From: an uncultured Lachnospiraceae bacterium
GTDB lineage: Bacteria > Bacillota > Clostridia > Lachnospirales > Lachnospiraceae
Assembly (NCBI GenBank): GCA_902775555.1
Contig: CACYMQ010000021.1
Coordinates: 1 to 37,332, forward strand
DNA: 37,332 nucleotides
Direction: 5' to 3'
The notes beneath the pieces were generated by a model. It worked only from the letters and a program-made list of their open reading frames with translations, was not told where the DNA came from and did not search any database. Made by a program: the position numbers and the translations under genes. Below are positions 1,878-34,198 of the stretch, piece by piece. Numbering within the stretch: position 1 is the first letter of the stretch; each line of letters opens with the position of its first letter.

Positions 1878-1963
1878 GCGTAAAAGCAGCTTCAGGCCAA
1901 ACGGAATATGCACAGATTGTCGAAGGGAAAAGGTGGATGTAGATTAAACGTATGGAGGTTATT

Positions 1964-2260
1964 ATGAAACACAGCCTTGGGAATGAAACACTGACAATTT
2001 ATCTGGAAGGCGAGGTAAACTCTGCCAATGCGGTAGATGTGGAGAAAGAGATCGGTCAGATCATCAGTCAGAACAGCTTCAAATCCCTCGTTCTTGATCT
2101 GGAGGATCTGACATATCTGTCATCCGCCGGGATCAGGATCGTGATCTGCCTGAAGCAGGACTATGGTGACGTATCAATGGTGAAGGCTTCGGAAGAGATA
2201 TATAGTATCTTTTATATGGTCGGACTCCATAAAATGATGAAGATTGATAAGCAGTCATAG
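1964..2260 (+). CDS. STAS-domain protein, anti-sigma factor antagonist type
   Basis: A 98-residue STAS domain with the phospho-acceptor loop YLSSAGIRIV. The start at 1964 is chosen because GGAGG (1954-1958) lies five bases before it. An in-frame ATG at 1952 would overlap this ribosome site and adds only four residues. The gene ends 16 bases before the first Cache/PP2C phosphatase, so the two are probably one operon. In the RsbV/SpoIIAA scheme the phosphatase would remove phosphate from this protein. The domain is clear; the pairing is inferred from position. Confidence 0.9.
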   Translation: MKHSLGNETLTIYLEGEVNSANAVDVEKEIGQIISQNSFKSLVLDLEDLTYLSSAGIRIVICLKQDYGDVSMVKASEEIYSIFYMVGLHKMMKIDKQS

Positions 2261-2276
2261 TTAAAGAGAGCGTAAG

Positions 2277-6071: not shown

Positions 6072-6106
6072 TTGTAAAGATTCTGTAAATGTCGTTTTGG
6101 TATAGT
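6072..6106 (+). promoter_or_regulatory. Promoter with TGTAAA direct repeats, copy 1
   Basis: Two TGTAAA boxes (6073-6078 and 6084-6089) lie 11 bp apart, one helical turn, and TATAGT (6101-6106) follows 11 bases after the second. No good -35 exists at the standard distance. This is the geometry of activator-dependent promoters bound by OmpR/PhoB-type regulators, and TTTACA on the other strand resembles Gram-positive Pho boxes. A nearly identical element lies at 9871-9905. Confidence 0.5.
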
Positions 6107-6149
6107 GTCCTTGAAGATAAGAAACAGATCAAAGAAAGGAAGAAAACCC

Positions 6150-9100
6150 ATGTTTAACGAAGCATTTCATACAAAAGAGGAATTTTTGGAAATCTGTAAA
6201 GGACAGGGGTGGGATGCACCTGAGGAACAGGAGTTTTTCGGACATTTCTTTGACTATGTCAGTGAATTGGATCGTGAAGGCAAGAGTGACCCGCTGGACC
6301 TGGATTCCATGGGAGTCAATCTGGCACAGCTGAACGGAAAGAACCAGACACAGCGGAATATCTTCATCAACAAGATGCGTGATGCATTCGGGAATACGGC
6401 ATATGTATTTCCGCAGGAGCTTAAGGACGGATTCAAGAAGGTGGAGTCTGTAGTCGTTATTAATACGGATCCGATGCAGAAAAAGCTCGAGGAGATGGAC
6501 AGAAAAAAGCAGGCCCTGATGGAGAAAAATGAAGAAGCAAGGAAGGCTTCCGAAGCTTTGCTCACCTATGTCGACGAAGCCTTGGAGAAGCTGGTCGGGG
6601 AATACGAAAAGATGAAGGCCGAGGAAGCAAAGAAGAAGGCTCCTGAGGAAGACGACGATGTAGATCCCGAACTTAAAGCTGCATATGACGCACAATATGT
6701 AACGATCAATTTCAACCTCGGTGCAAAAGGTGCTTACGCCAGCAAAGTAAGCCTTCAGGAATATCAGCAGAAACTGAAGCAGGCCGGGTGGACCTACCCG
6801 AAGGATCTGGCTGTATTTGAAGCCCTTTACAGATTGTCCGAGGTCCTGGATCATCCGAAGCTGGATAATCTTCTGCGTGATGCACTGAATGATTCAAACG
6901 CATTAAATGCAAATAAAAGAATGTCCTTCCTGTACGGTGATGTAACTCAGATACTCTCGCAGTTTGTGCTTACAGATAAGATCCCGTCCACATTAAGGAA
7001 CAAGATCACCGGCTGCTTTGATGAGCTTGATCAGGAGACCATCGATGCGAACTACTGGGATACTTTCCTTAAGACCCGTCCGAAAACATGGGAAGAGAAT
7101 GCGGCCATCGAGTGGCAGAAAGGTCAGGTAAAACCGGGACAGGAGATCATTTATGATTATACCCTCACAAGATTTGTAGAGAAGGCGAAGGATAACGGCT
7201 GGACTACAGAGCAGGATGTGAAATTCGTTACTGACATTTATAATTACAGAAAAGAAAACAAGTGGACTGAAAACCGGAGTATGGATAAGATCCTGATGGA
7301 TATCATCAACTATCCGGTCTGGGGCGGAGCCAATCGCGAAAGGGTCCTTCAGAATATGGAGGAAACCTTTGAACGGATGGAAAGCAGGAGATATTTCTAC
7401 AGCATTGACCGACTTCGGAAGGGTCAGAAGCCCTACATCACGGAGCTTAAGGAGTCCCTCGCAGGAATAAAGAGCCGGACAGATGCGTATTATGAGGAGC
7501 AGTACCTCGCGCATTTCGGAAAGGCTTACCAGAAGACAGAGGACGATCTGGAGAGGGACAGAAAGGCACGGGAAAAGGAAAGAAGCGTTTTTGTAGAGAA
7601 ATACAGGGACGCAGTTTGGGAGAACAGAAGAGTTTTTGATGTATCCTTCCGTCTTTCCGAAAAGGAATTCCTGAACATCGCAGAAGGCAATGGTTGGCTG
7701 GGAGCCTCCGGATTTGACCACCGGGATCTGAATGGTCTGATGGATCTGTACGATGTGACCAGAAATTCGGGGAATAAGCAGCTGCTGGGACTCCTGAACA
7801 AGATCCTTATTACAGAGGTTGACACGAAGGAGAAAAGAGATGCTTTGGTAAAGGATATCCTGGACACCGTATCCGGAGTTCTGGGTGAGGACACCATCTT
7901 CGGAGAAGACGAGAAGAAACTGACGCAGATCCGTGATGGTAAGGGATTCGTTTCCAATGTCAGTGAGAACGAGATCCGCAGTACACTTAAGAGTTATGAG
8001 AACACCCAAAACCGTGAGGAGAACCTGAATGAACTTGGCAAGATCGTTCTCAGGCAAGGTTGGGATGTGGAGGATCTGCCCTTTTTCGAATCCCTCTATG
8101 ATTTCCAGACAAAAAAAGTAAATGAGAAGGGTATCTCTCCCATTGACGAAGGACTTGAAGCGTTATTGAAGGGAAGGATCGGGTATTTCAACACCGCTAC
8201 AAAGAAAAATGAGCTTCTCCGTAAGTTTAAGGATGCTGTAGCGGAGTCTTCCCTGGACGAGGATGATAAGTTTGACCTTGGACAAACCATCGAAGAAAAG
8301 ATCCAGCAGGGGATCAAGGAGGAAAGAAAAGAAAGAGAAGAGAAAATCTTTGAGGACGCAAATATCGCCATAGAGCCGGATGTACTGGAAGAACCGAAGA
8401 AGTATTCTGCAGATGCAGAATTCCACAGTGAAGAGAATGCTGATAAGGATCCTGATAATGCTGAGCAGGATAAGGATCAGGAGCAGAAGAAGTATTCTGC
8501 AGATGCGGAATTCCGTAATGCAAAGAACCTCTACAAGGAGCGTGATCATGCTGAGAAGGCAAAGATCAGGAAACTGCTTGATGAAGCATATGTAGAAACA
8601 GAGATACTTCGGAATAAAGTTGCCGGTGAGCAGATCTTCAAGGAAGAGGAGCCGAAGGCTGAGATCCCGGCTGAGGGTGAGGCGAAGGTCGAAGAAGAAC
8701 CGAAGGCTGTTCCGCCTGTAGTGAATGTAAAGAAGGAAGAGCAGAAGGAAGAGCAGAAGGAAGAGGTTCAGAAGGCACCGGACGAGGAAGACAAGAAGGT
8801 ATCGGCAGAGGAAGATAAAAAGTCCGGGGCCGACAACCGCAGTATCCATCGGGCGTCCAATGACAACCTGATCTTAGACAGAGATAATCCCATCAATGAC
8901 AGGGAATCCTTCAAGGATGATAATGGAGGAAGACTTCCGTACAGAAAGAAGAATCGTCATTTCGTGGACCGGGATCTCTCTTCGGATCTCGGTATCAACA
9001 ATGAGGTTCAGGCTGGTCTGGAGAGAACAGAGGCTTACGTAAAGAACGTCTATGCTTTTAATTTCGCCAGGATCAGTCTCATGAAAGCCATCGATATAGA

Positions 9101-9854
9101 AAAAGAAAAGCTCGGACAGTTGAAGCAGAATTCCGTAGTGAAAGCGCTTAAGGTAAAAATGGACCTATGCAAGGATAAACTGAAGCTTAACCGCTATTCC
9201 ATGCGTGAAATGTACAATGAACTGAATGATATGAGCTCGATCGCTCAGAATACGAAGGGCTACGATGGTCTTAGAGCGCGGGTGATGGTTGCAGTATTCT
9301 CCGAGGCAGTAAGGCCTCTTATGGATGTCAGTGATGTAAACATCAGGCTGGACGCCAAAAACAGTGCAGAGGTTCCTGTTAAGGAGATTTACGAAGAAGT
9401 GAAAAATGCCATGATCGCATATGACATAGACAAGCCGATAAAAGGCTCTTCACATGATGCGTACGTTGCGCTGGAGAACAAGGCCAAGGCAAGATTCATC
9501 CTGAATGATACTCTGTCGAAGGCATGTGGAAAAAGCATCGCGACGAGCTTTACCGAATCGGGTCTGGTTGATTCGATTGTGGATATGGGAAGACCGAAAA
9601 AGGCGCATGAGAAAGCAACAGACCAGGTGGCCAAGGCTGTCCTTGAACAGGCCGGAGCAAAGGATGCAAATGCTGCAACCATCAAAAACCTTACATCCAT
9701 GATCAGGAATAAGGGCTTTGCAAGGCAGGTGGAAACACTGGAGAAGAGCAAGACATTCCAGGACAATTTTAAAAAGGAGAATGACTACCGGAAGCAGCAG
9801 AGAGATGCCGCAAATAAGCATATGAAGGCAAAGGCTCATGGCCCTCGTTTCTGA
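6150..9854 (+). CDS. 1234-residue cytoplasmic repeat protein of unknown function
   Basis: I do not recognise a family. The start at 6150 has AAAGGAAG seven bases upstream; an upstream in-frame GTG lies inside the promoter. There is no signal peptide or membrane helix. At least five diverged modules are visible, each centred on a Gly-Trp pair (Trp21, 214, 351, 516, 638). Each has a preceding helix and a following acidic/aromatic helix, for example GWDVEDLPFFESLYDF and GWTYPKDLAVFEALYRL. Residues about 720-940 are Glu/Lys-rich and probably disordered, with KKYSADAEF occurring twice (about 750 and 780). The last 280 residues are predicted helical and basic at the end. It is a lone transcript behind a special promoter; a scaffold or secreted-effector-like role would be a guess. 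Confidence 0.85.
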   Translation: MFNEAFHTKEEFLEICKGQGWDAPEEQEFFGHFFDYVSELDREGKSDPLDLDSMGVNLAQLNGKNQTQRNIFINKMRDAFGNTAYVFPQELKDGFKKVESVVVINTDPMQKKLEEMDRKKQALMEKNEEARKASEALLTYVDEALEKLVGEYEKMKAEEAKKKAPEEDDDVDPELKAAYDAQYVTINFNLGAKGAYASKVSLQEYQQKLKQAGWTYPKDLAVFEALYRLSEVLDHPKLDNLLRDALNDSNALNANKRMSFLYGDVTQILSQFVLTDKIPSTLRNKITGCFDELDQETIDANYWDTFLKTRPKTWEENAAIEWQKGQVKPGQEIIYDYTLTRFVEKAKDNGWTTEQDVKFVTDIYNYRKENKWTENRSMDKILMDIINYPVWGGANRERVLQNMEETFERMESRRYFYSIDRLRKGQKPYITELKESLAGIKSRTDAYYEEQYLAHFGKAYQKTEDDLERDRKAREKERSVFVEKYRDAVWENRRVFDVSFRLSEKEFLNIAEGNGWLGASGFDHRDLNGLMDLYDVTRNSGNKQLLGLLNKILITEVDTKEKRDALVKDILDTVSGVLGEDTIFGEDEKKLTQIRDGKGFVSNVSENEIRSTLKSYENTQNREENLNELGKIVLRQGWDVEDLPFFESLYDFQTKKVNEKGISPIDEGLEALLKGRIGYFNTATKKNELLRKFKDAVAESSLDEDDKFDLGQTIEEKIQQGIKEERKEREEKIFEDANIAIEPDVLEEPKKYSADAEFHSEENADKDPDNAEQDKDQEQKKYSADAEFRNAKNLYKERDHAEKAKIRKLLDEAYVETEILRNKVAGEQIFKEEEPKAEIPAEGEAKVEEEPKAVPPVVNVKKEEQKEEQKEEVQKAPDEEDKKVSAEEDKKSGADNRSIHRASNDNLILDRDNPINDRESFKDDNGGRLPYRKKNRHFVDRDLSSDLGINNEVQAGLERTEAYVKNVYAFNFARISLMKAIDIEKEKLGQLKQNSVVKALKVKMDLCKDKLKLNRYSMREMYNELNDMSSIAQNTKGYDGLRARVMVAVFSEAVRPLMDVSDVNIRLDAKNSAEVPVKEIYEEVKNAMIAYDIDKPIKGSSHDAYVALENKAKARFILNDTLSKACGKSIATSFTESGLVDSIVDMGRPKKAHEKATDQVAKAVLEQAGAKDANAATIKNLTSMIRNKGFARQVETLEKSKTFQDNFKKENDYRKQQRDAANKHMKAKAHGPRF

Positions 9855-17457: not shown

Positions 17458-19740
17458 ATGTCAGGATTTGATGAAAATGTCCGGGAATACAGAAAGAAGA
17501 AGCAGGATCTGATCAAAACCGAAAACAAGATGGAAATGGGTATAAAACGTACCGGTTTGCTTTCCAATGCTCCTGTGGAAAAGGAGAGAAAGAAGACAGA
17601 TTCCATAGATGCCTATAGGAAGATCCTTGCTGCCGATTTTGACACTGCAGAATGGATCGGTAAGGAGAAGTCCCTTCGAAAACACAGGAAGAATATAAAT
17701 TCGAATTACAAATCCCTGACCGGTCGTAAAACAGGACTCTCAGGCGATGAAAAGCTCCGGAGGAAGAAGGATTTTGAGCCCAGACGTGATCTTTCCCTGA
17801 AGGCTTCCGAGGCGCTGGGAGAATTCATCCGGGGGGCATCCGGTATGGACCCGGATCCTGAGGATGAGGGGCTGCTCAAAATGGCAGAGGAGATGGATCT
17901 GTCCCGGTTTGTATACGGAGGCGGATCCGGAGCGGCAGAGGATCTGAAAAACGATGAGGAATTTGTTTCGGGATTTGCGGAGCGGATGACGGCGCTTCAT
18001 CAGGCATCCCTGCTCTATAACAAGCTTATGCAGGGGAATATCGACAGCATGTCCCCCGCACTGCTGAGCAAGCTTTCGCAGATGAATGATATGCGGCAGG
18101 CGTACGAGGACCGGATCCGGATCATTTCTTCCCCATATTACGTGTCCTTGAGAGAAGTGGATTTTGATCAGAGCACGAAGGACAAACTGTGGACGGGTGA
18201 GGATGATGAAAAACGGAGTGAGAACCTGAAGGACTATGCGAAGTCCATGCTTCGCTGGCAGGAAAGCGGGAAGAAGCTTCTCTCCGTGAAGCAGGGAGCC
18301 GGGGAGGCTGCTCCGGCAGAGCAGGAAATCCATAATCAAAATGTTCTCATGGAAGGAAGAGTCTTCGTGAGCGATCAGGCCGTCGATAAGGTGATCGGTA
18401 AGATAAACGGGAAGACGAAAGAGGGCTTCGGGAAAATGGTCAACGGAGACCGTGACCAGGCCATGACCTATACCAGGGAGTGGGTATACCAGGATCTGAA
18501 AAAGAAAGCCGATCCGAAGAAGATGCTGCATGAAGTGGATCGGATGAAGGAACGGCTCAGAAAGGAGCTTGCGGAAGGGAATCCGGAGGAGACGAAAAGA
18601 AGGAGCATAACCAAGGTCGTGCAGCATCTTGAACGTGTGTCCAACGCCTTTGCCGCCAGGAAAATCTCTCCGGAGGCAATGCGGGTCTGGCTGGACCGGT
18701 GTCTTATGCACAAGCTGAATTATTCCGGAGAAATCTATCTGAACCTTGTCCACCAGGGAAAAACCAAGCTGGATGAGGAGAATTATTTCGATGAGGCAAA
18801 GAAGGTGATCGATCCGTATGTGCAGCAGATGAGCGGCGTGATCTTCGCCCAGTCCACGTTCCCGACAACCGGGGTTTATCAGAACAAGGCAGATCTCGCG
18901 GAGACGAAGGATCCTGCCATCCTGCGTTCGCGGCGCGGGTGCAAGAACGTTAAAGAACTGAGAATTAAAAAGCTGCATGAGTTTTCGGGTATGGGACATA
19001 TGTCGATCAATGACCAGGGGACTGACTTCATCCATATCAGCGGCAAGAATGCGGATTACAATGATATCACTGCCAGAGCATATGTGAGTGCAAAGCCGCA
19101 GTATAAGTCGCTTGTACTGCGCCTGTTCACGGAAACCGTAGCTGAATTCGAAAACAAGAATATGCGGGACGAGCTGTATTTTAAGATCTCCTCCGAAAAA
19201 AACAGGAGCAGGGGTTTTGCGGCAGACGATCTCACGATCTATCTGGGATCAAATGTTTCCATGGAAGAGAGAAAGCAGCTCCTGGACAAGTTTTACGAGA
19301 AGTGCAGTAAGGTGAGCACCGAAAAAGGAGAAAGTATCCTGGACGGAGACAATATGGTCATTGCAGGCTCCAAGTACAAGGACGGGATCGCTCTTGCGGG
19401 AGAACCGGATATCGCCACCCTGCTCAACCTGACATTCGCCAATGCCGATAAGAGATTCTTTTCAACCTTCAGCGATAGGGGAAGATTGGAAAAGATGCGG
19501 AATATGTCCTCTGACCAGATCAAGGAAAAGTACTCCTTCAATACATTTGTGGTAGCCATGCTTGTTCAGAGCACATTTGTTGCCGGGAAACGTCTCAAAA
19601 AGAAGCTTACGGATGAGATCGATGTCAATGATCCGAAGGTAAGGGAAGAGATAAAGAAGATATTCCGCGAGCTCTGTTTCCTGAACGGGATCAATCCGGA
19701 AAATATGGCGGATATCGACAATACGTCAGCCCTTGGCTGA
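17458..19740 (+). CDS. 760-residue protein of unknown function, faint HopA1-like region
   Basis: GGGAGGTG precedes the ATG at 17458. The N-terminal 330 residues are charged and helical with no signal peptide. Residues about 520-690 show motifs in the order seen in HopA1-type domains: AYVSAKPQ, a FKI strand, ADDLTIYLG (588 on), GIALAGEPD (643 on) and a FSTFSDRG segment. HopA1 was named from a plant-pathogen effector and related domains occur in class V lanthipeptide loci; whether this protein is truly homologous needs profile comparison. It lies 12 bases after the GNAT gene and 32 before the WYL regulator, forming one likely operon. No secretion signal or toxin-immunity pair is seen. Confidence 0.8.
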   Translation: MSGFDENVREYRKKKQDLIKTENKMEMGIKRTGLLSNAPVEKERKKTDSIDAYRKILAADFDTAEWIGKEKSLRKHRKNINSNYKSLTGRKTGLSGDEKLRRKKDFEPRRDLSLKASEALGEFIRGASGMDPDPEDEGLLKMAEEMDLSRFVYGGGSGAAEDLKNDEEFVSGFAERMTALHQASLLYNKLMQGNIDSMSPALLSKLSQMNDMRQAYEDRIRIISSPYYVSLREVDFDQSTKDKLWTGEDDEKRSENLKDYAKSMLRWQESGKKLLSVKQGAGEAAPAEQEIHNQNVLMEGRVFVSDQAVDKVIGKINGKTKEGFGKMVNGDRDQAMTYTREWVYQDLKKKADPKKMLHEVDRMKERLRKELAEGNPEETKRRSITKVVQHLERVSNAFAARKISPEAMRVWLDRCLMHKLNYSGEIYLNLVHQGKTKLDEENYFDEAKKVIDPYVQQMSGVIFAQSTFPTTGVYQNKADLAETKDPAILRSRRGCKNVKELRIKKLHEFSGMGHMSINDQGTDFIHISGKNADYNDITARAYVSAKPQYKSLVLRLFTETVAEFENKNMRDELYFKISSEKNRSRGFAADDLTIYLGSNVSMEERKQLLDKFYEKCSKVSTEKGESILDGDNMVIAGSKYKDGIALAGEPDIATLLNLTFANADKRFFSTFSDRGRLEKMRNMSSDQIKEKYSFNTFVVAMLVQSTFVAGKRLKKKLTDEIDVNDPKVREEIKKIFRELCFLNGINPENMADIDNTSALG

Positions 19741-24415: not shown

Positions 24416-24970
24416 CTAGGGGGTGCTGCCGTTTTCTTTTCCGGGCTTTTCCTTTTTCGGGACGGGTTTCTCTGCATTCGGACCGCTTTCGGATCCCTCC
24501 TTTGTATTCTTCCCATAGGTACTTCCGGGTTCGGCTACAAGGGAACTGCTTTCCTTCTTCAACATTGCCAGGGCTTCTTCTCCGGTGTAGGTGTGCAGGA
24601 CGGTAGGGCGTGTCCGTGTATTTCTCTTTTTCTTTCCTTCCGGACGGGCGGTTCCCGGGGAATGCTTCATTTCCGAGATCCCTTCCATATCCTGTTCCAG
24701 TGTCAGTTTCTTCTTCGTGTACTTTCGAAATGCCTCCTGTTCATCCAGATACTCCTGTGGCAGGCAGTGGCGGATATAATCCATAAGGTCTACACCATAA
24801 ATATAGGACAGGATCGCCAGCTGCTCCGGGGACGGCCGCGCCCTGCCGGTCTCGAGATTGCTGTAGGTCTGTCTGGATACATGAAGGACCAGCGCCATTT
24901 CCTTCTGAAGAAGATTGTTGGATTCCCGGAGGCTGCGAAGCAGGTCTCCCCAGAAAATGATCGGATACAT
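24416..24970 (-). CDS. XRE-family helix-turn-helix protein with disordered tail
   Basis: A 184-residue protein. Residues about 8-63 form a Cro/CI-type HTH (LRESNNLLQKEMALVLHVSR followed by QTYSNLETGRARPSPEQL). Residues 64-115 are helical. From 115 the chain is Lys/Glu/Pro/Gly/Ser-rich and probably unstructured. GGAGG stands seven bases before the ATG. It is divergent to thyA across 205 bases and may act on that region. Its own target is unknown. Confidence 0.85.
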   Translation of the reverse strand: MYPIIFWGDLLRSLRESNNLLQKEMALVLHVSRQTYSNLETGRARPSPEQLAILSYIYGVDLMDYIRHCLPQEYLDEQEAFRKYTKKKLTLEQDMEGISEMKHSPGTARPEGKKKRNTRTRPTVLHTYTGEEALAMLKKESSSLVAEPGSTYGKNTKEGSESGPNAEKPVPKKEKPGKENGSTP

Positions 24971-26575: not shown

Positions 26576-26604
26576 TTTAATTTAACCGGCAGGTATGGTA
26601 TAAT
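26576..26604 (+). promoter_or_regulatory. Promoter of the YbjQ-TPR-coiled-coil operon
   Basis: TTTAAT (26576-26581), 17 bases, TATAAT (26599-26604), with TGG upstream of the -10 as TGn extension. The leader to the ATG at 26681 is about 70 bases. Confidence 0.65.
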
Positions 26605-26680
26605 TTACGAGTGTACGTGTATCGTGCAGGAGAAGGGCGAAGCGGCAATGCTTCAGCCGGACAGGAGGGGTAGAAAAATA

Positions 26681-27778
26681 ATGGCAGACTTGATGTTAAC
26701 GACGGGGGACAGCTTCGAGGGGTATGAGATCAAGGAGTACCTCGGGATCGTAGCCGGAGAGGCAATCCTGGGTTCCAACTTTATCAAGGGACTTACAGCA
26801 AGTATGACAAACATGTCCGAACAGGACATGGCAAAAGTGGAAAAAGCCAGAGAGGACGCGGAAAATCGTCTGATCAAGGCGGCAAAGAAGAAAAAAGCAG
26901 ATGCCATTCTCGGGGTTCAGGCGGTTTATACGACCTTTGAGGGTGGTTCTTTTGGTGCTATCATCACCGGAACTGCCGTATCGCTTCAGGAGATACCGAA
27001 GATCGACAACCGGATCTCCAAGGATCTCGTGGTCATGAATTACTATGAGCGCCTGGTGCCGCGCGCGGTACGTGTGACATTGGACGGTGACAGGGACGAT
27101 ATCCGGATGAAGGTGCTGTTCTTTAATTACAACAAGGATGACATCCAGGCCATCCGCGCAAATGTGGAGCTGACGAATGTTTATGACGAACGCCTGGTGA
27201 TCAAGGATGTGGATTTCGTATTCGAGAAGGGAAATGTATCCCAGATCGAGTCCGGTTATGTACCGGCACAGATCTCCGCAAATGATGTGATGCTTCTTAA
27301 GGAGGCAAAGGTCATCATCAGTAAGTATGCAACACCCCGTGCGATCTATGCATGCAATGACACGCCGGTCAATGTTTCCATGTCGGCACACCGTCTGGAA
27401 TCCCTGAAGGCAAAGCGTGGTATCGATGCGGTTGAGAAGTATATGACGGACGGCATGATCTGGACCTGTAACTGCGGTCATGTAAATGAAGCCGGAACCG
27501 ATGAGTGTATCGTCTGCGGGCGTAAGCATGATGATATTAAGATCAGTACATCCTTCAATTATGAGGAAATGATCGACAAGATGCGTGAGAAGGAATATGT
27601 CATGGAGATCAAGGATGTCTTGATGGATTACATTTCCCAGGGCGCGATCGATGTGAAGTATCGTCTGCAGCTGCTTGAGATCATGGAGTCCGGACTTCAG
27701 TATGAGAAGACCAGAGGCAACATGAAGGATACCGTGATCGAGAAAGTAGAGAAGGTCTTCGAGGAAGAGGATCATTAG
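26681..27778 (+). CDS. YbjQ-domain protein with C-terminal zinc ribbon
   Basis: A 365-residue protein. Residues about 1-105 are a YbjQ (UPF0145, heavy-metal-binding) domain with YLGIVAGEAILGSNFIKGL and ADAILGVQAVY. A middle region of about 150 residues is unrecognised. Residues about 260-280 are a four-cysteine zinc ribbon (C-x-C, C-x2-C: WTCNCG and CIVCG), and the last 80 are helical. YbjQ proteins alone are about 105 residues, so this is an extended architecture. AGGAGGGG precedes 26681. It heads an operon with the TPR and coiled-coil genes, so it may be a soluble pentamer-forming scaffold of that assembly, which is inference. Confidence 0.85.
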   Translation: MADLMLTTGDSFEGYEIKEYLGIVAGEAILGSNFIKGLTASMTNMSEQDMAKVEKAREDAENRLIKAAKKKKADAILGVQAVYTTFEGGSFGAIITGTAVSLQEIPKIDNRISKDLVVMNYYERLVPRAVRVTLDGDRDDIRMKVLFFNYNKDDIQAIRANVELTNVYDERLVIKDVDFVFEKGNVSQIESGYVPAQISANDVMLLKEAKVIISKYATPRAIYACNDTPVNVSMSAHRLESLKAKRGIDAVEKYMTDGMIWTCNCGHVNEAGTDECIVCGRKHDDIKISTSFNYEEMIDKMREKEYVMEIKDVLMDYISQGAIDVKYRLQLLEIMESGLQYEKTRGNMKDTVIEKVEKVFEEEDH

Positions 27779-27802
27779 ATAGGATTAAAGAGGTGAATCA
27801 TT

Positions 27803-29791
27803 TTGAGCTCCGGACTCAGCATGACAAGTGTAAATAAAATAAAAGAGCTGGCTGAAGCAAAGGAATACAGCCTGGCTGTGGAGATCCTGGATTCCCAGGA
27901 CCTTGAAAAGTCGCTGAATCCCCAGTTTCTCCGGATCTGCGGAGAGGTTTATGAAAATGTGGGAAGAGCTGCCGATGCGCGGAACATGTATGTAAAAGCG
28001 CACACCATGGGACCGGCTTCCAACCGGATCCTGTTCTCCCTTATCACATTTTATCTGAAACAGGGATACTTCGAGCTGGCTGAACAGTATGTGGAGCAGT
28101 ACCGGTATAACGCCCGGGGGGCTGCGCAGGAGCTGAAGAATATCGACTATGTGGTAAAGAAGGCCAAGGGTGCGGAACCGGATGAACTGGAGTCCTTCCT
28201 GGAACCCTACTACAGCCACAATATGGATGAAGAGTGGAGTTTTGAACTGTTCCTTCTTCACAGACTGCAGGGTAAGGATACGGAAATGCTGGCTGCCGAT
28301 TATATGGCAACCTTCCGGAGACGGGCCGGCAGGGATGTGATGCAGGAGGTTCTGGACGGGCAGGTGGAACCGGAGGAGCTCTTCTACGTATATGCAGAGC
28401 ATCCGGTACCGGATCAGGATCCCGCGGAAGAAGAGATCCGTGAACTGGAACGTGAGCAGCTGAAGAAGGATTATCTTCGGATGCATCCGGAATCAGGGAA
28501 GGATGATGAGACACTGGAGGATTCCGGTGAGAAGGAAGAGGGCGCAGCGGAGATCATAGATACTCCCGATACGGAGCAGAAATTTAAATCCTTCCTGAAG
28601 AGGACATTCCGAAAGAAAGCCAAGGACGAACCGGAGGCTGAAGCTGAGAATGCGGATGGAGCATCCGGACAGGCAGAAGCGGATTCCGGGGAGAATCAGG
28701 AGGCAGAGGAAACCGATAAGACCGGATCCGAAGAGGAATCCGTGACGGAGACGCCGGAACCGGCCCCGACAGATACAGGGTACACCGGTGAAAAGCCCGA
28801 AGCTTCGGAAACTCCCGATGAGGTTAAGCAGGAAAAAGAAGCAGAGCCGAAGGAAGAAAACGACCGGTTGAAGGGCTTTGTATCAAGATTCTCCGATCGG
28901 GGCAGGAATAAGAACGAGATGCAGGAGATCGAAGCGGATCCGATGCAGGATGTGTTCAGTGTTGATTTCGATGACGGATTTGCAGCCGAATCAGACAGCA
29001 TATCCGATCTTGCGGAGACCGAGAATGAAGCATATCAGAATCCGTTTGATCTGATCAATGCCTACAAGATCGACAGAAAAGAGAAGGAAGAGATCCGGGA
29101 GACCTACGGAAATGTTCCCAAGGATCTGAAGGATACCTTTGATGCCGTGAAGAAGGCTGCCGAAGAGCCGGTAGTAGAGCCGGTAGTAGAAGAGAAAGAA
29201 GAACCGATCCCGTGGGAGGAGCCGGAGAAGGAGGAGACCTTCGAACCGGAGCCGATCGTGGAAGAGGAACCGATAGAAGAACCGATAGAAGAACCGGAAG
29301 AAGAACCGGAAGAGGAACCGATCCCGTGGGAGGAGCCGGAGAAGGAGGAAACCTTCGAACCGGAACCGATCGTGGAGGAGGAACCGGAAGAGGAACCGAT
29401 AGAAGAACCGGAAGAGGAACCGATCCCGTGGGAGGAGCCGGAGAAGGAGGAGACCTTCGAACCGGAACCAATCGTGGAAGAGGAACCGGAAGAGGAACCG
29501 GAAGAGGAACCGATAGAAGAACCGGAAGAGGAACCGATCCCGTGGGAGGAGCCGGAGAAGGAGGAGACCTTCGAACCGGAACCGATCGTGGAAGAGGAAC
29601 CGATAGAAGAACCGGAAGAGATCAGGCCGGAGCAGCCTGAACCGGTGGAAAAGGAAGCAGAACCGAAGAAATCTGCATTTGATGTATTGGTGGAGAAAGA
29701 AAGCGAAAAGCTGGATGAGGGATTACTGGAAGAGGAAAGGCTTCAGAAAGAAGCGGAGGAGCTTCTGGCATCTCTGGGGATTAAACTGTAA
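27803..29791 (+). CDS. TPR protein with Glu/Pro repeat region
   Basis: A 662-residue protein from a TTG start, chosen because AAAGAGGTG lies seven bases upstream; an ATG at 27821 is the alternative. Residues about 8-215 are TPR-like helices (paired helices such as YENVGRAADARNMYVKAHTM). Residues about 240-465 are acidic and probably disordered. Residues 468-600 hold four copies of a 23-residue motif beginning PIPWEEPEKEETFEPEPIVE, separated by varying EEEP/IEEP units. The end LLASLGIKL is a conserved-looking peptide after a charged helix. The acidic tail faces the Lys/Ala-rich coiled-coil protein encoded 20 bases downstream, suggesting partners. There is no signal peptide. Confidence 0.82.
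   Translation: MSSGLSMTSVNKIKELAEAKEYSLAVEILDSQDLEKSLNPQFLRICGEVYENVGRAADARNMYVKAHTMGPASNRILFSLITFYLKQGYFELAEQYVEQYRYNARGAAQELKNIDYVVKKAKGAEPDELESFLEPYYSHNMDEEWSFELFLLHRLQGKDTEMLAADYMATFRRRAGRDVMQEVLDGQVEPEELFYVYAEHPVPDQDPAEEEIRELEREQLKKDYLRMHPESGKDDETLEDSGEKEEGAAEIIDTPDTEQKFKSFLKRTFRKKAKDEPEAEAENADGASGQAEADSGENQEAEETDKTGSEEESVTETPEPAPTDTGYTGEKPEASETPDEVKQEKEAEPKEENDRLKGFVSRFSDRGRNKNEMQEIEADPMQDVFSVDFDDGFAAESDSISDLAETENEAYQNPFDLINAYKIDRKEKEEIRETYGNVPKDLKDTFDAVKKAAEEPVVEPVVEEKEEPIPWEEPEKEETFEPEPIVEEEPIEEPIEEPEEEPEEEPIPWEEPEKEETFEPEPIVEEEPEEEPIEEPEEEPIPWEEPEKEETFEPEPIVEEEPEEEPEEEPIEEPEEEPIPWEEPEKEETFEPEPIVEEEPIEEPEEIRPEQPEPVEKEAEPKKSAFDVLVEKESEKLDEGLLEEERLQKEAEELLASLGIKL
29204..29602 (+). repeat. 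In-frame coding repeats, four copies of 69 bp
   Basis: The 69-bp unit CCGATCCCGTGGGAGGAGCC... starts at 29204, 29318, 29420 and 29534. The intervals of 114, 102 and 114 bases are all multiples of three and are filled by 12-base EEEP/IEEP units. Copies are almost identical at DNA level, so recent expansion or gene conversion is likely, and copy number may vary between strains. Confidence 0.95.
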
Positions 29792-29811
29792 CGGAGAAGG
29801 AGGAAACGGTA

Positions 29812-32800
29812 GTGGCTATTGACCAAAGAGAAGCTCTCATAGCTGCGGTTCGTGCGCAGGTTGAGAAGGAAAAGGCGGAAAAGGCAGCCAAGCTGAAGAA
29901 GGAACAGGAAGCACGTGCGTTCCAGAAGGGTACGGCAAAAAAGGATGAAGCAGGCGGAAAGCCGAAGTACAAAACTCTGACTCCGGAAGAACTCGCAAAG
30001 ATCGAAGAAAGAAAGAGGAGAAAGAGAGCAGAGGAACTTGGTATTCCTTATGAACCGGAAGATGCAGCTCCGGCAGAGGATACAGCTTCCAAGGCAGAAG
30101 AGCCTGCGGATGATGAGGTTGGTGAGACCGAAGTGCTGACCAGTGATAAGCTGGGAGGTCTTGGCGGACTCGGAGGAGGCCTTGGCGGACTCGGCGGCGG
30201 ACTCGGAGCAGTTTCCGCGGATTCCAAGCAGGGCGGACTCGGTGGAATTCCCACCGGCGGACTCGGACTGAAGCTGCAGCCTGAAAAGACGGACGGCAAG
30301 GACGATAAGGTCAAGGTCGTTAGCGGAAAGAGTGAGGCAAAAGGCAAGGAAACAGCAAAGTTCTCAGCCGACGGAACCAAGGTTGTCAACGGAAGCGATG
30401 CTAAGTGGGAGAAAGGTGCGTCCAAAACCAAAACCGTGGAAATGGACAGCATTCTGCCTACAAACAGAAAAACACCGACCAATGATGTCGACAGCATGTA
30501 TGATATCGACGATGATGACGATACCGGATTTGATGCTCAGCTGAAGGCGGTTGCCGACAAGGCTCCTGCACCGGAAGAGAAGAAGGAAGAAGAGGCTGAG
30601 AAGAAGGAAGAGCATCACGCGGATGAAAAGAAGGATAAGCCAAAGAAGAAGGCTACCAGCGGCATAGACGAACAGCAGAGAAGGATCGCGGAAGCCCGCG
30701 AGAAGGCAGCGGCCAGAAAGAAGGCAGAGGAAGCTGCCAAGCATGCGGAGGAAGACGCAAAGAGGAAGGCTGAGGAAGAGATCAAGCGTAAGGCCGAGGA
30801 AGATGCCCGCAAGAAGGCGGAAGAAGAAAAGAAGCGTCTGGAAGAAGCCCGGATCCGTGCGGAAGAAGAAAAGAAGAAGAGAGCCGCAGAAGCAGCAAAG
30901 AAGAAGGCTGAGGAAGAGGCAAAGAGAAAGGCTCTGGAGGAAGAGAGAAAGAAAGCAGCTGAGGAAGCAAGAAAGAAGAAGGCCAAGGAAGCAAAGGAAG
31001 CTGCAAGAGAAAAGGCAAAGAAGGAGCTTGAGGATGCACGCCGGCAGATCGAAGAAGCCAAGCGTATCATCGCATCCGTTGAAGGCATCGATAAGGAAGA
31101 AGCACTTCTGGATGAGAAAGACCGGAAAGCCGAGGAAGAGAAGAAGAAGGCTCTTGATGCTGTCAGCGCTGAACTGAAGCAGGCTGAGGCTGATAAGGAA
31201 ACGGCTGTTCAGGAAGCGAAGAAGGCTGTGGAGGCTGCCAAGGCTGAAAAGGCGGCTGCCGTAGAGAAGGCTGCAGTTGCGGTCAAGGAGGCAGAAGCCG
31301 GCGTTCAGGCAGCAGTGGAAGCTGCGAAGAAGAAGGCAGAGGAAGATAAGGAAAAACTGCTTGCCGATATCTCACTCCGCAATACTAAGGCAGAAGAAGC
31401 TAAGAAGGCCGCTGAAGAGGCTGAGAAGAAAGCCATCGAAGATGCGGAAAAGAAGCTGGCTGAAGACAAGGCAAAAGTCGATGCAGAGACAGAAGCCAGG
31501 AAGAAAGAGGCGGCTGAGAAGAAGGCGGCTGAATGTGCCGAGCTGACGAAAGCACGGGATGAGGCTGACAAGGCGGTGGAGGCTGCAAATCAGAAGGTGG
31601 ATGCTGCGAAGGCGGCAGCGGCTAAGGCGGCTGAGAAGATCGCAGAAGCTACAAAGCTGCTTGAGGAAGCCAGGAAGGAAGAGGCCACAGCAAAGGCGGC
31701 TGAAAAGAATGCCGAGGCTGAGGCTGTCAATCTGAAGAAGGCAGCGGGAGATGCGGCAGCAAAGATCGCTGTAGTAGAGAAGAAGTATCAGGATGCTGAG
31801 GCTAAGGCTGTGGCTGAGGCCGAGACGAAGAAGAAGGCCCTGGAAGAGGCTGCAAAGAAGGATGCGGCAGATAAGAAGCGCCGTGCTTCGGAAGCGGCAG
31901 CCAAGGCAGCAGCTGAAGAAGAGAAGAATAAGAAAGAGGACGAGGCTAAAAAGAAAGAGATCGAAGCCTCTGTTGCAAAAGCCGAAGGTGAAGCAAAGGC
32001 AAAGGTCGTTGCTGCAAAGGCACTTGTGGATAAGGCAGGAAAGGATGCCGATGCCAAGGTAGCGGAAGCTGAGAAGGCAGTTGCAAAGGCAGAGAAGGAT
32101 GCGGACGCGAAGATCGCAGCGGCTAAGAAGAAGAAGGATGAGGAGAAGTCCAGACAGAGAAATCTGGAGATGACCCGCCTGAAAGAGAAGGAAGCTGCGC
32201 TTCAGAGGATCGAGGAAAACAAGCACAAGGTCGAGGACGCACGAAAGATCCTCGCAAATGCTTCCAAGATCGAGGAAGAAGCGAAGAAGCGCGTCGAAGA
32301 AGTCGAGAATATGGACTTCGACATTTCCCAGCCCGCAGAGGAAGGAACTCTTCCGCTTGCAGCATACTATCTGGAGAAATACCTTGGTATCGACAATGCG
32401 GCTGATGAGATCGTGGCATCCTTCAATGAGATCGTAGCACATCCTGAGAAATCACGTAATATCGTGATCCTGGGACGTTACGGCTTCGGCTCGGTGTGCG
32501 TAGGTGAGGATTTTGCGCGTAGTTACTTTGACATCGGGCTCAGCAAGTCCAAAGTGATCGCTAAGATCCGTGCACAGGGCCTGAATAAACTGGCAGATGA
32601 TAAACTGGAAGCAAATATGGCTAAGCTGGCCGGCGGATGCCTTGTGGTTGAGAATGCCGGACTGATCAAGCCGGAACGTCTGAAGAAGATCGTTGAACTC
32701 GGAAAGCAGGAATGCTTTGATTACGGCATTGCCCTTACGGGAGAGATCGATTCCATAGCGAAGATCTTCGCTGACTGCAAGTCTGTAGTGCCGGAATTCA

Positions 32801-33054
32801 ATCACCTGATCCAGCTGGATGAGATCACAAATGATGAGATGTTCAATGTCGCTTTTGGCTACATCCTGCAGAGAGGATATACGGGAATCGAGAATATCGA
32901 GGCGAAACTCCGGAATCTGTTCCTTGCAATGGAGACCGGTAACCTGGATCGGCTTCTCAAGTCGGTAGATGACGCGATCGAGCGTTGTGATGAGCGTGAG
33001 AAGAAAGCGGGCGGTGAGGCAAAGAAGACCCTTGTCGCAGATGATTTCCAGTAA
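29812..33054 (+). CDS. Long coiled-coil protein with degenerate AAA-like C-terminal domain
   Basis: A 1080-residue protein from GTG 29812 (AAGGAGG upstream). Residues 1-110 are charged helices, 114-155 a Gly/Leu-rich stretch (GGLGGLGGGLGG), and 255-830 an unbroken Ala/Lys/Glu coiled coil similar in composition to TolA. Residues about 843-1070 form a globular domain like AAA/CbxX-type ATPases. Its P-loop reads GRYGFGSV (888-895), with Ser instead of Lys and Val instead of Ser/Thr, and Walker B is LVVENAG with Glu-Asn instead of Asp-Glu, so ATP hydrolysis is unlikely. It lies 20 bases after the TPR gene and a terminator follows. A filament or spacer linking to the MreB-like protein is inference. 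Confidence 0.85.
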   Translation: MAIDQREALIAAVRAQVEKEKAEKAAKLKKEQEARAFQKGTAKKDEAGGKPKYKTLTPEELAKIEERKRRKRAEELGIPYEPEDAAPAEDTASKAEEPADDEVGETEVLTSDKLGGLGGLGGGLGGLGGGLGAVSADSKQGGLGGIPTGGLGLKLQPEKTDGKDDKVKVVSGKSEAKGKETAKFSADGTKVVNGSDAKWEKGASKTKTVEMDSILPTNRKTPTNDVDSMYDIDDDDDTGFDAQLKAVADKAPAPEEKKEEEAEKKEEHHADEKKDKPKKKATSGIDEQQRRIAEAREKAAARKKAEEAAKHAEEDAKRKAEEEIKRKAEEDARKKAEEEKKRLEEARIRAEEEKKKRAAEAAKKKAEEEAKRKALEEERKKAAEEARKKKAKEAKEAAREKAKKELEDARRQIEEAKRIIASVEGIDKEEALLDEKDRKAEEEKKKALDAVSAELKQAEADKETAVQEAKKAVEAAKAEKAAAVEKAAVAVKEAEAGVQAAVEAAKKKAEEDKEKLLADISLRNTKAEEAKKAAEEAEKKAIEDAEKKLAEDKAKVDAETEARKKEAAEKKAAECAELTKARDEADKAVEAANQKVDAAKAAAAKAAEKIAEATKLLEEARKEEATAKAAEKNAEAEAVNLKKAAGDAAAKIAVVEKKYQDAEAKAVAEAETKKKALEEAAKKDAADKKRRASEAAAKAAAEEEKNKKEDEAKKKEIEASVAKAEGEAKAKVVAAKALVDKAGKDADAKVAEAEKAVAKAEKDADAKIAAAKKKKDEEKSRQRNLEMTRLKEKEAALQRIEENKHKVEDARKILANASKIEEEAKKRVEEVENMDFDISQPAEEGTLPLAAYYLEKYLGIDNAADEIVASFNEIVAHPEKSRNIVILGRYGFGSVCVGEDFARSYFDIGLSKSKVIAKIRAQGLNKLADDKLEANMAKLAGGCLVVENAGLIKPERLKKIVELGKQECFDYGIALTGEIDSIAKIFADCKSVVPEFNHLIQLDEITNDEMFNVAFGYILQRGYTGIENIEAKLRNLFLAMETGNLDRLLKSVDDAIERCDEREKKAGGEAKKTLVADDFQ

Positions 33055-33072
33055 CCCGGCGGTAGGTGCTCC

Positions 33073-33114
33073 AATTCACTCCGATGCTGCTTTTGCGTCG
33101 GAGTGAATTTTTCA
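33073..33114 (+). terminator. Rho-independent terminator after the coiled-coil gene
   Basis: AATTCACTCCGA (33073-33084) and TCGGAGTGAATT (33098-33109) pair perfectly over 12 bases with a 13-base loop and end in a T run. The downstream MreB-like gene therefore needs read-through or its own promoter, which I cannot identify in the 80 bases between. Confidence 0.88.
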
Positions 33115-33190
33115 TGCAGTGACAGCTGCAAAGATGGAGAGGAGTCTGCAAAGGAGTGCGGAAAGACTTTTCGACGGAAGGATAGAAGAT

Positions 33191-34198
33191 ATGTATCGAA
33201 TTGACATGGGGATCGATCTGGGAACCTCAAATGTATGTATCTACATGAGAGATAAGGGGATCGTGATCAACCAGCCTGCGGTTGTGGCTTATCAGCCAAA
33301 GGAAAAAAAGATCATAGCGGTAGGCTCCAAAGCCAAGCGTATGATGGGTAAGACACCGGAGGGGATCGATGTGGAGACGCCTCTGTCCGGTGGCGTCATT
33401 TCCAATTACACGCTGGCGGAACGGATGATCAAGGCATTTGTAAAGAATGCCCTGAAGAAGAGGAAGATCTGGGGCCGTCCCAATATCTGTGTGTGTACGC
33501 CGGCGGGTATCACCGAGGTGGAGAGGCGTGCCGTGGAGGATGCGGTAGTCCGCACGGGTGCAAAGCAGGTTTTCGTTCTGGAGTCCTCCATAGCAGCTGC
33601 CATCGGAACCGGAGTGGATATCATGGAGACGGTGGGGCATATGGTGGTGGATATCGGCGGAGGTACCACGGATGTGGCTGTGGTCTCTGCGGGAAATATC
33701 GCAACGGGAACCAGCATCAAATGCGCAGGCCTTGCATATACGGAAGCTCTCAGCAGATACATCAAGAGAAAATACAATGTGGAACTGGGTGAGCTTTCTG
33801 CGGAGGATGCCAAGCTTGAGGTAGGTTCCGTAATGAAGCGGAAGCAGGACCTGGCATATGAGGTGAAGGGAAAGCATATCCTTAGCGGACTTCCGGTCCG
33901 GCTGGAGATCACCGCGAATGAAACCGTGGAGGCTTTCGAAGAACCTACACGTCAGATCCTTGCAGCCATCACCGGGATCCTGGAAACAGCGCCTCCGGAA
34001 CTGGTATCCGATGTGTCGAAGGAAGGGATCCTGCTTTCCGGCGGAGGCAGTCAGATCTACGGAATGTCACGACTCATCCAGGAGAAAACCGGTATCCGCG
34101 TGACCCCCAGTGACGAGCCTGAAAATGTGGTTGCGGCAGGGGCCGGGATGGCAGGAGAATACATCATGATCCAGGATGAAGAAAAAAGGGAAAAGTAA
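33191..34198 (+). CDS. MreB/Mbl-family actin homologue
   Basis: A 335-residue actin-like ATPase from the MreB family, which polymerises under the membrane and guides cell-wall synthesis. Phosphate-1 is MGIDLGTSNVCIYM, phosphate-2 VVDIGGGTTDVAVV, and the adenosine motif ILLSGGGSQIYGM. The start at 33191 has AAGGATAGAAG upstream; a start at 33119 would lie against the terminator and adds a non-conserved tail. No mreCD or min genes follow, unlike the classical mre locus, so this is a separately placed paralogue (Mbl/MreBH-like), perhaps dedicated to the TPR/coiled-coil assembly. The thl promoter begins at the base after its stop. Confidence 0.9.
   Translation: MYRIDMGIDLGTSNVCIYMRDKGIVINQPAVVAYQPKEKKIIAVGSKAKRMMGKTPEGIDVETPLSGGVISNYTLAERMIKAFVKNALKKRKIWGRPNICVCTPAGITEVERRAVEDAVVRTGAKQVFVLESSIAAAIGTGVDIMETVGHMVVDIGGGTTDVAVVSAGNIATGTSIKCAGLAYTEALSRYIKRKYNVELGELSAEDAKLEVGSVMKRKQDLAYEVKGKHILSGLPVRLEITANETVEAFEEPTRQILAAITGILETAPPELVSDVSKEGILLSGGGSQIYGMSRLIQEKTGIRVTPSDEPENVVAAGAGMAGEYIMIQDEEKREK

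Follow-up and report, generated by a model that had tools for sequence, protein, structure and literature searches.

The YbjQ, TPR, long helix/AAA-like and MreB-like genes described here form a conserved cassette in Lachnospiraceae, and their linkage is strongly supported. They lie on the forward strand of the window, by which we mean the whole 37,332-nucleotide stretch of DNA analysed, from an uncultured Lachnospiraceae bacterium. The order YbjQ–TPR–long helix/AAA-like–MreB-like recurs in seven genera (g1, g27, g70, g204, g231, g259 and g278), two of which have genes inserted into it, and at 57 named loci. It is thus not unique to one strain; such uniqueness is what an earlier note on this DNA had said would refute its reading. 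We tentatively propose that the products of the four genes function together as a cytoskeletal scaffold of the MreB family, a reading to which we give slightly less than even weight.

Organization of the locus

Open reading frames for all four genes are present where the earlier note had placed them, all on the + strand. The YbjQ gene (26681-27778, likely start ATG 26681) encodes a 365 aa protein. It is followed by the gene for a 662 aa TPR protein (27803-29791), comprising an N-terminal domain (residues 1-232) and an acidic tail (233-662), and by that for the 1080 aa long helix/AAA-like protein (29812-33054), the intergenic gaps being 24 bases (27779-27802) and 20 bases (29792-29811), as previously described. 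The MreB-like protein ("MRE2", 335 aa) is encoded downstream in the same direction (33191-34198, likely start ATG 33191). Both starts were assigned by eye from the sequence. The single promoter that the earlier note assigns to the first three genes is inferred, as an extended -10 element (TG-n-TATAAT; TGGTATAAT, 26596-26604, + strand), read from the sequence, is visible upstream of the YbjQ gene but a consensus scan that required a -35 match listed nothing at this site. The gap between the AAA-like and MreB-like genes holds a terminator-like hairpin and T-run (33074-33114, + strand, -23.4 kcal/mol), and a hairpin of -9 kcal/mol or below was found between these genes at 33 of the 57 related loci, a count made without a shuffled control.

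Conservation of the gene order

The 57 named loci, all from Lachnospiraceae, are those in which the AAA-like ORF is long or is cut by the contig start (6 of 57); at the remaining 23 of the 80 loci kept, the ORF is complete at 370-446 aa and no MreB-like gene adjoins it. Among the named loci, the AAA-like and MreB-like genes were adjacent in every case (57 intact, 0 broken). The YbjQ–TPR junction was intact at 44 loci and broken at none, with 2 at contig edges, and the TPR–AAA-like junction was intact at 45 and broken at 1, with 11 at contig edges. On the downstream side, the MreB-like–thiolase junction was intact at 23 loci and broken at 28 of 51, with 6 at contig edges. On the upstream side, dfrA and YbjQ were adjacent at 44 of 44 loci; as this junction is as intact as the cassette, conserved order alone is no proof of function.

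The four genes could be neighbours only, with the MreB-like protein the product of an independent morphogenetic gene and the upstream three a separate unit located by chance in a slowly evolving stretch of the chromosome. The hairpin terminator would separate two such units, and at most loci the block is flanked by thyA-dfrA and thiolase-crotonase, with the dfrA junction never broken. We nevertheless consider this explanation somewhat unlikely, as the AAA-like–MreB-like junction has held throughout while the MreB-like–thiolase junction has often been lost. The unit also persists in a new context. Genus G512 has TPR, AAA-like and MreB-like genes in an uninterrupted row, YbjQ 3.7 kb away and different flanking genes, with no thyA, dfrA or thiolase match in the 19.5 kb fetched; in G380 the cassette is kept with inserted genes. 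YbjQ is the looser cassette member in the two basal genera. Furthermore, 20 cassette-free genomes gave best matches that belong to the ordinary Mbl clade, with no member of the MreB-like clade among them.

Only 18 of 37 genomes from the genus of the window showed the long-form AAA-like gene. A contig end cuts the TPR ORF at 14 of the 19 further loci read and the long-helix ORF at 2. Because these ORFs run into contig ends, most of the missing genes are assembly breaks, and we do not believe that they represent real loss.

The TPR and long helix/AAA-like proteins

Elsewhere in the Lachnospiraceae, a single ORF holds both the TPR and the AAA-like domain at 18 of 18 distant loci fetched, drawn from 74 such genomes. 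A profile of the TPR N-terminal domain gave exactly one match in each of the 25 genomes searched, and in the 18 this was always the fused ORF. Since a single chain in these relatives holds both conserved domains of genes two and three, the cassette genes are, on sequence grounds, the separated halves of a family protein, and the link between the two is firmer than the earlier note could have known. The five fused proteins read whole have acidic or proline-rich linkers. TPR matches of the window protein fall under the curated cut-offs, and those of the fused orthologue L264 are above the cut-off; a Pfam scan of four fused members matched no curated whole-protein family. L264 also gave two weak PADLOC matches in its P-loop region.

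The tail of the cassette TPR protein (residues 233-662) has a net charge of -119 and contains Glu/Pro-rich repeats of the IPWEEPEKEETFEPEPIVEEE type at residues ~467-600 (29201-29602, + strand, from the translation), in line with its earlier description as an acidic Glu/Pro repeat tail. The long helix protein opens with a segment, DQREALIAAVRAQVEKE... (29812-30066, + strand), that stays strongly conserved when the window is compared with 19 loci and is a candidate docking segment. Further along is a charged Ala/Lys/Glu helical shaft (residues 285-835; 30664-32316, + strand), in which 53% of residues are charged and the net charge is +4; the whole protein is acidic, with a pI of 5.7. The two long chains had been described as oppositely charged, which these values do not bear out, and given net charges of +4 and -119 we reject charge pairing between them. 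The same protein had been called a 1080-residue coiled coil. Its length is correct, but a canonical coiled coil is not supported, as 3.5-residue hydrophobic periodicity did not rise above shuffles in three segments (fractions 0.97, 0.65 and 0.33). What does stand out is a charge repeat of 8 residues together with a period of 3.6, and the shaft is a charge-rich, helix-like stretch without a heptad signal.

The C-terminal AAA-like domain (32317-33051, + strand) was modeled with a pLDDT of 90. The best PDB match to this model in Foldseek was CbbX (3zuh, E 1.9e-10), a distant match given TM-scores of ~0.55, and CbbX/CbxX-type AAA+ proteins (3zuh, 3syl, 3syk) appear to be its closest structural neighbors. 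Unlike these proteins, with which it shares 15-17% identity, the domain has no Pfam AAA match and has lost the P-loop Lys and Thr, its sequence reading GRYGFGSV (32473-32496) rather than GxxxxGK[ST]. A predicted CbbX-type fold lacking both residues is consistent with the "dead" AAA-like domain proposed previously. None of 23 cassette or short-form rows has the P-loop Lys, versus 14 of 18 fused proteins.

The cassette might alternatively be a protein-quality or assembly module derived from a chaperone-like TPR–AAA protein, with other clients and with the MreB-like protein as a client or bystander. In the wider family the fused protein is single-copy and joins TPR and AAA-like domains in one chain, a CbbX-like fold is predicted for the cassette version, and, unlike the cassette, the fused protein had no YbjQ-profile or MreB-profile match around it at the 18 loci (14-18 kb fetched). 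The nearest MreB-family match seen was ~15 kb off, in G361. With no such match in the spans fetched, the fused protein could originally have served in something other than a cytoskeleton. We still regard this alternative as quite unlikely, since the absence of the P-loop lysine from every cassette row compared makes ATP-driven remodelling unlikely and every split form seen on a contig that continues was accompanied by the MreB-like gene.

The MreB-like protein and the missing mreB

The MreB-like protein matches PF06723 (MreB/Mbl) along its whole length (E 1.1e-110, residues 28-349 of a longer ORF) and PDB MreB entries with E ~1e-79, bearing out the earlier assignment of a downstream MreB-family gene on the + strand. 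We reject its identification as an ordinary Mbl, which the earlier note had held would count against its proposal, because a separate ordinary Mbl is encoded in the same genomes and the cassette protein forms its own clade in our trees. As in MreB and Mbl, the Asp and Thr residues of the nucleotide site are retained in this clade (56-59 of 59 rows) and the membrane-loop position is hydrophobic (59 of 59, by alignment to Caulobacter MreB). Unlike MreB and Mbl, members of the clade often lack the catalytic Glu, E140 of Caulobacter MreB (PMC4051119). The equivalent residue is Ser132 in the window protein, and 31 of 59 clade rows have a residue other than Glu there; Glu is kept in the other 28, versus 45 of 45 Mbl rows. 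The gene context differs as well. At all loci seen the MreB-like gene sits with the three cassette genes and not with mreCD, as for MreB, or with flagellar rod-type (flhO/flhP-type) genes, as for Mbl; the ordinary Mbl gene and mreCD occupy other loci, where the neighbors were named by eye.

Of the 8 cassette genomes inspected, all 8 have mreC and none has mreB next to it. A strong mreB match was missing from 9 of 9 genomes with the full cassette YbjQ protein versus 48 of 191 others, and from 8 of 8 versus 37 of 160 when genomes of at least 90% completeness were compared. The chance of this pattern would be 7.7e-6 if genomes were independent, which they are not. These counts favor an mreB replacement, in which the MreB-like protein is the functional MreB of the Rod system and the other three proteins are new cofactors. 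Constraining the MreB-like clade to group with MreB gave trees that could not be rejected (p-AU 0.74 and 0.49), one of which outscored the free tree by 10 log units. Set against this, mreB loss occurs without the cassette too, the ordinary Mbl is still encoded, and the signature residues of the clade lean to Mbl (306 versus 100), in a test that is blunt, as true mreB rows scored 78 versus 84. On balance we consider replacement unlikely.

The quick tree also leans to Mbl for the origin of the clade, but is not the best tree, given the better score of the MreB-constrained one. A second tree left out four long, divergent mreB rows (L313, L315, L316 and L317), and a third left out all family mreB rows and 18 near copies. 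The clade may be either a displaced MreB or a copy of Mbl, and the trees do not separate the two. The data further suggest more than one loss or degradation of mreB within the Lachnospiraceae, with mreC retained in the genomes checked, so that what replaces mreB becomes a testable question.

A possible scaffold and its relation to known systems

Gene linkage partly supports the scaffold or cytoskeletal reading of the earlier note; its charge-pairing argument falls away, and the proposed tie between the YbjQ, TPR and AAA-like proteins and the MreB-like protein comes from gene neighborhood. In a scaffold of this kind, the TPR and AAA-like halves may still work together. The AAA-like domain would sit at the tip of a helical arm (551 residues, ~80 nm long as a single extended helix) and would bind partners or form rings without turning over ATP. 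An adaptor role would fall to the acidic TPR protein, and the YbjQ/zinc-ribbon protein would be a hub or assembly factor. The whole would be anchored on filaments that the MreB-like protein forms at the membrane, and in this lineage that protein may replace the missing mreB, or alter its role, in cell shape or wall growth. Taken furthest, the cassette would encode a new cytoskeleton, built from a pseudo-AAA domain on an 80-nm arm and a hydrolysis-impaired actin, both having lost catalysis, with a TPR adaptor and a YbjQ/zinc-ribbon hub; it would have arisen from the split of the family-wide TPR–AAA protein and a recruited MreB/Mbl duplicate, with mreB lost from mreBCD. We consider this full version improbable.

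MamA is a TPR partner in the magnetosome scaffold. In the same scaffold, the actin homologue MamK works with the acidic-repeat linker protein MamJ (PMC2818848), and the cassette likewise encodes an actin homologue and an acidic-repeat protein. The MreB-like protein itself differs from MamK, scoring 68.7 bits against a cut-off of 400 for NF040964. Crescentin is a coiled-coil-rich bacterial shape protein. The Ccrp proteins of Helicobacter, bacteria that also have MreB, are described as coiled-coil-rich long helical cytoskeletal proteins (PMC2776988). The cassette resembles these systems in having a long helical protein beside an MreB-family actin. Unlike Ccrp and crescentin, its helical protein lacks a heptad signal, has an AAA-like domain and is encoded next to the actin gene.

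In agreement with the earlier note, which knew of no named system with these four parts, our searches of the literature on MreB/Mbl, YbjQ and the Lachnospiraceae cytoskeleton turned up no description of one. PADLOC models gave no match to the four window proteins at E 0.01, on which basis we reject an anti-phage defence system. If the scaffold reading is true, MreB-family filaments gain dedicated partners in a group of bacteria abundant in the gut and rumen, and the family tree could be used to order three events: the gene split, the disappearance of ATPase residues and the recruitment of an actin.

The YbjQ/zinc-ribbon protein

The first protein of the cassette was confirmed as an extended YbjQ protein with a zinc ribbon. 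Its YbjQ domain matches PF01906 (E 1.7e-17) and the PDB entries 1y2i and 1vr4. Small single-domain YbjQ proteins are ~105 aa; this one adds a beta-rich region, the zinc ribbon and helices to reach its 365 aa. The C-x-C...C-x2-C motif (C263, C265, C276 and C279; 27467-27517, + strand) is invariant in a 25-row alignment and occurs without exception in the 44 YbjQ proteins checked. The structure model (pLDDT 77) matched nothing but YbjQ-type entries in the PDB at E < 0.001. Strong full-length relatives of the cassette protein occur in 9 of 200 family genomes, and YbjQ/zinc-ribbon relatives outside the cassette context are found in G554 and G543.

Identification and conservation of a four-gene cassette

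Four genes lie on one strand of the window, flanked by dfrA on one side and a thiolase gene on the other. The first (26681-27778) encodes a YbjQ/zinc-ribbon protein and the second (27803-29791) a TPR protein whose acidic tail carries Glu/Pro repeats. The product of the third (29812-33054) has 1080 residues, with a long, charged helical shaft followed by an AAA-like domain at the C-terminus; the fourth (33191-34198) encodes a member of the MreB family. The first three are separated by 24 and 20 bases, as the earlier note gave them, and an extended -10 element is found upstream of the YbjQ/zinc-ribbon gene. The intergene between the AAA-like and MreB-like genes contains a hairpin and T-run (-23.4 kcal/mol). 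The identities of thyA, dfrA, thiolase and crotonase were assigned by eye from translations. A small HTH-like regulator, also named by eye, is divergent to thyA (minus strand, 24416-24970); in named loci this pair is adjacent in 40, broken in 3 and at an edge in 1.

A scan of named genomes with the AAA-like domain as query gave 108 loci, of which 80 were retained. The cassette type accounts for 57 of them (L143-L199; the AAA-like ORF is cut by the contig start in 6); the other 23 have a short paralogue, which is an ORF of 370-446 aa with an MreB-like neighbour in 0/23. Genome titles in the scan include Eubacterium ruminantium ATCC 17233, strains AC2029, AC2031, NE2001, LC2019 and YSB2008, and numerous rumen and gut assemblies. 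Adjacency of the AAA-like and MreB-like genes is unbroken in 57/57 cassette loci. YbjQ–TPR adjacency is intact in 44 of these, broken in 0 and at edges in 2, and TPR–AAA-like adjacency is intact in 45, at edges in 11 and broken only in L188, where an additional ORF was called between the two genes. The MreB-like and thiolase genes are neighbours in 23 loci but not in 28; of the latter, 27 have the thiolase at a greater distance and 1 lacks it. As dfrA–YbjQ adjacency is likewise 44/44, order kept inside cassette loci is only partial evidence. Within the same genus YbjQ and TPR are present in 33 of 37 genomes, the other four being 73-85% complete. Assignment of the four genes to one module is well supported by linkage. 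Among loci L124-L142, contigs stop inside the TPR ORF in 14/19 and inside the long-helix ORF in 2, and annotation pipelines may therefore under-report the cassette.

Strong full-length matches to the YbjQ protein occurred in 9 genomes (8 genera) among 200 family genomes representing 199 genera. The cassette is present in seven of these genera; in the eighth (G429) the contig stops directly past YbjQ. A class-wide sample of 391 genomes returned two such matches, both from Lachnospiraceae. Weaker full-length relatives that keep the zinc motif were found in G554 and G543 (L373:7293-8378 and L374:7016-8137; 163 and 140 bits), with no cassette in their surroundings. Genomes of two more distant genera are informative on linkage. 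In G380 (L254) an amidohydrolase-like gene, named by eye, separates dfrA from YbjQ, and a rhomboid gene lies between YbjQ and TPR. In G512 (L372) the latter position holds FGGY kinase, HAD and rhomboid genes; TPR, AAA-like and MreB-like genes are still contiguous, and thyA, dfrA and thiolase were not found within its 19.5 kb. The rhomboid membrane protein of these two basal cassettes matches Pfam at E 6e-33 (L254:14084-15100) and 3e-31 (L372:11289-12308), and may have been a fifth member of the ancestral set.

The TPR and AAA-like proteins as halves of a single chain

An AAA-like alignment search of the order matched 77/392 genomes, 74 of them distant, and the distant matches fall mostly in ORFs of 650-1500 residues. 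The TPR N-terminal profile matched the same ORF as the AAA-like domain in 18/18 distant loci, fetched out of the 74 genomes. Whole-genome searches with this profile gave exactly one match per genome (25/25), which in the 18 fetched-locus genomes is the AAA-like-bearing ORF. G061, G109 and G129 each have their single TPR match in an ORF of 973-2474 residues, and gave no AAA-like match in the search of the order's genomes. Since both domains occur in one ORF elsewhere, the second and third cassette genes are separated halves of that protein. Because its distribution is narrow, the split form is probably the derived state. The single-chain relatives are the best evidence that the TPR and AAA-like proteins may act jointly. 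Most genomes of the genus also carry a short AAA-like paralogue of about 370-450 aa (L052:6356-7627, G000 contig 35); those of L052 and L053 carry Lys/Pro/Glu repeats and have a histidyl-tRNA-synthetase-like gene, named by eye, downstream.

The earlier description of oppositely charged chains and a coiled coil is not supported. The helical stretch, 551 residues long, has a net charge of +4, and the two chains therefore do not carry opposite charges; strong charge is confined to the TPR tail (-119). A periodicity test of this stretch gave no heptad signal. The charge instead repeats every 8 residues, most clearly in one basal relative, where autocorrelation reaches 0.645 at lag 8. Such a pattern fits one long charged helix, or an unusual bundle, better than a conventional coiled coil. 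The modeled AAA-like domain (pLDDT 90) best matches CbbX (E 1.9e-10, TM about 0.55). Read from alignments, the P-loop lysine is kept in 14/18 fused proteins and in 0/23 cassette or short-form rows.

Origin of the MreB-like protein

The MreB-like proteins are monophyletic in two quick trees (20/20 rows, SH-aLRT 92 and 100) and in a careful 60-row tree (16/16 rows, 100/100). Nearly all rows of the clade keep the nucleotide-site residues. The position of E140, the catalytic glutamate of Caulobacter MreB (PMC4051119), is Ser in the window protein, and is Glu in 28/59 clade rows versus 45/45 Mbl rows. Lachnospiraceae MreB encoded beside mreC (L303-L312, L314) has Lys at this position in 11/11 rows scored and a phosphate-loop Asp to Asn change in 7/11; judged from these residues, the family's mreBCD-encoded MreB is degenerate too.

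Cassette genomes retain an ordinary Mbl. We found mreC in 15/15 genomes searched, 10 of them with cassette genes, and no adjoining mreB in the mreC neighbourhood of eight cassette genomes inspected. Scored by an mreB profile with our own cut-off of 1e-91, mreB is missing from 9/9 full-YbjQ genomes versus 48/191 others, and at completeness of at least 90% from 8/8 versus 37/160, counts in which genomes are non-independent and 16 score near the cut-off. Given the 48/191 genomes lacking both the cassette YbjQ protein and a strong mreB, mreB loss looks frequent in the family.

Signature residues of the MreB-like proteins lean to Mbl (306 versus 100), although the test is blunt, since control mreB rows gave 78 versus 84. 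In AU tests, trees that join the clade to MreB gave p 0.74 and 0.49 and were not rejected; one of these constrained trees scored 10 log units over the free tree. With these two lines of evidence both origins still stand: the protein may be a copied Mbl or may be a displaced MreB.

A proposed filament-attached scaffold

We favour a model in which the cassette is a scaffold attached to MreB-family filaments. The actin (MreB-like) filament would sit at the membrane, the long helical arm would bear a non-hydrolysing AAA-like head, the TPR protein with its acidic tail would serve as adaptor and the YbjQ/zinc-ribbon protein as hub. We infer the contacts with actin and the cellular role. The nearest working analogy, with no homology claimed, is MamK with MamJ (PMC2818848). 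The main results against a scaffold are the terminator-like hairpin before the MreB-like gene, the negative MreB-profile search of the 18 fetched fused-protein loci and the looser hold on YbjQ in basal genera.

Elsewhere in the window, two large ORFs (6105-9854 and 17458-19740; 1249 and 760 aa) gave no family above cut-off in a Pfam scan. Positions 1952-6046, with domains named by eye from translations, encode a small STAS-like protein and then two tandem proteins resembling sensor domain–SpoIIE-type phosphatase fusions.
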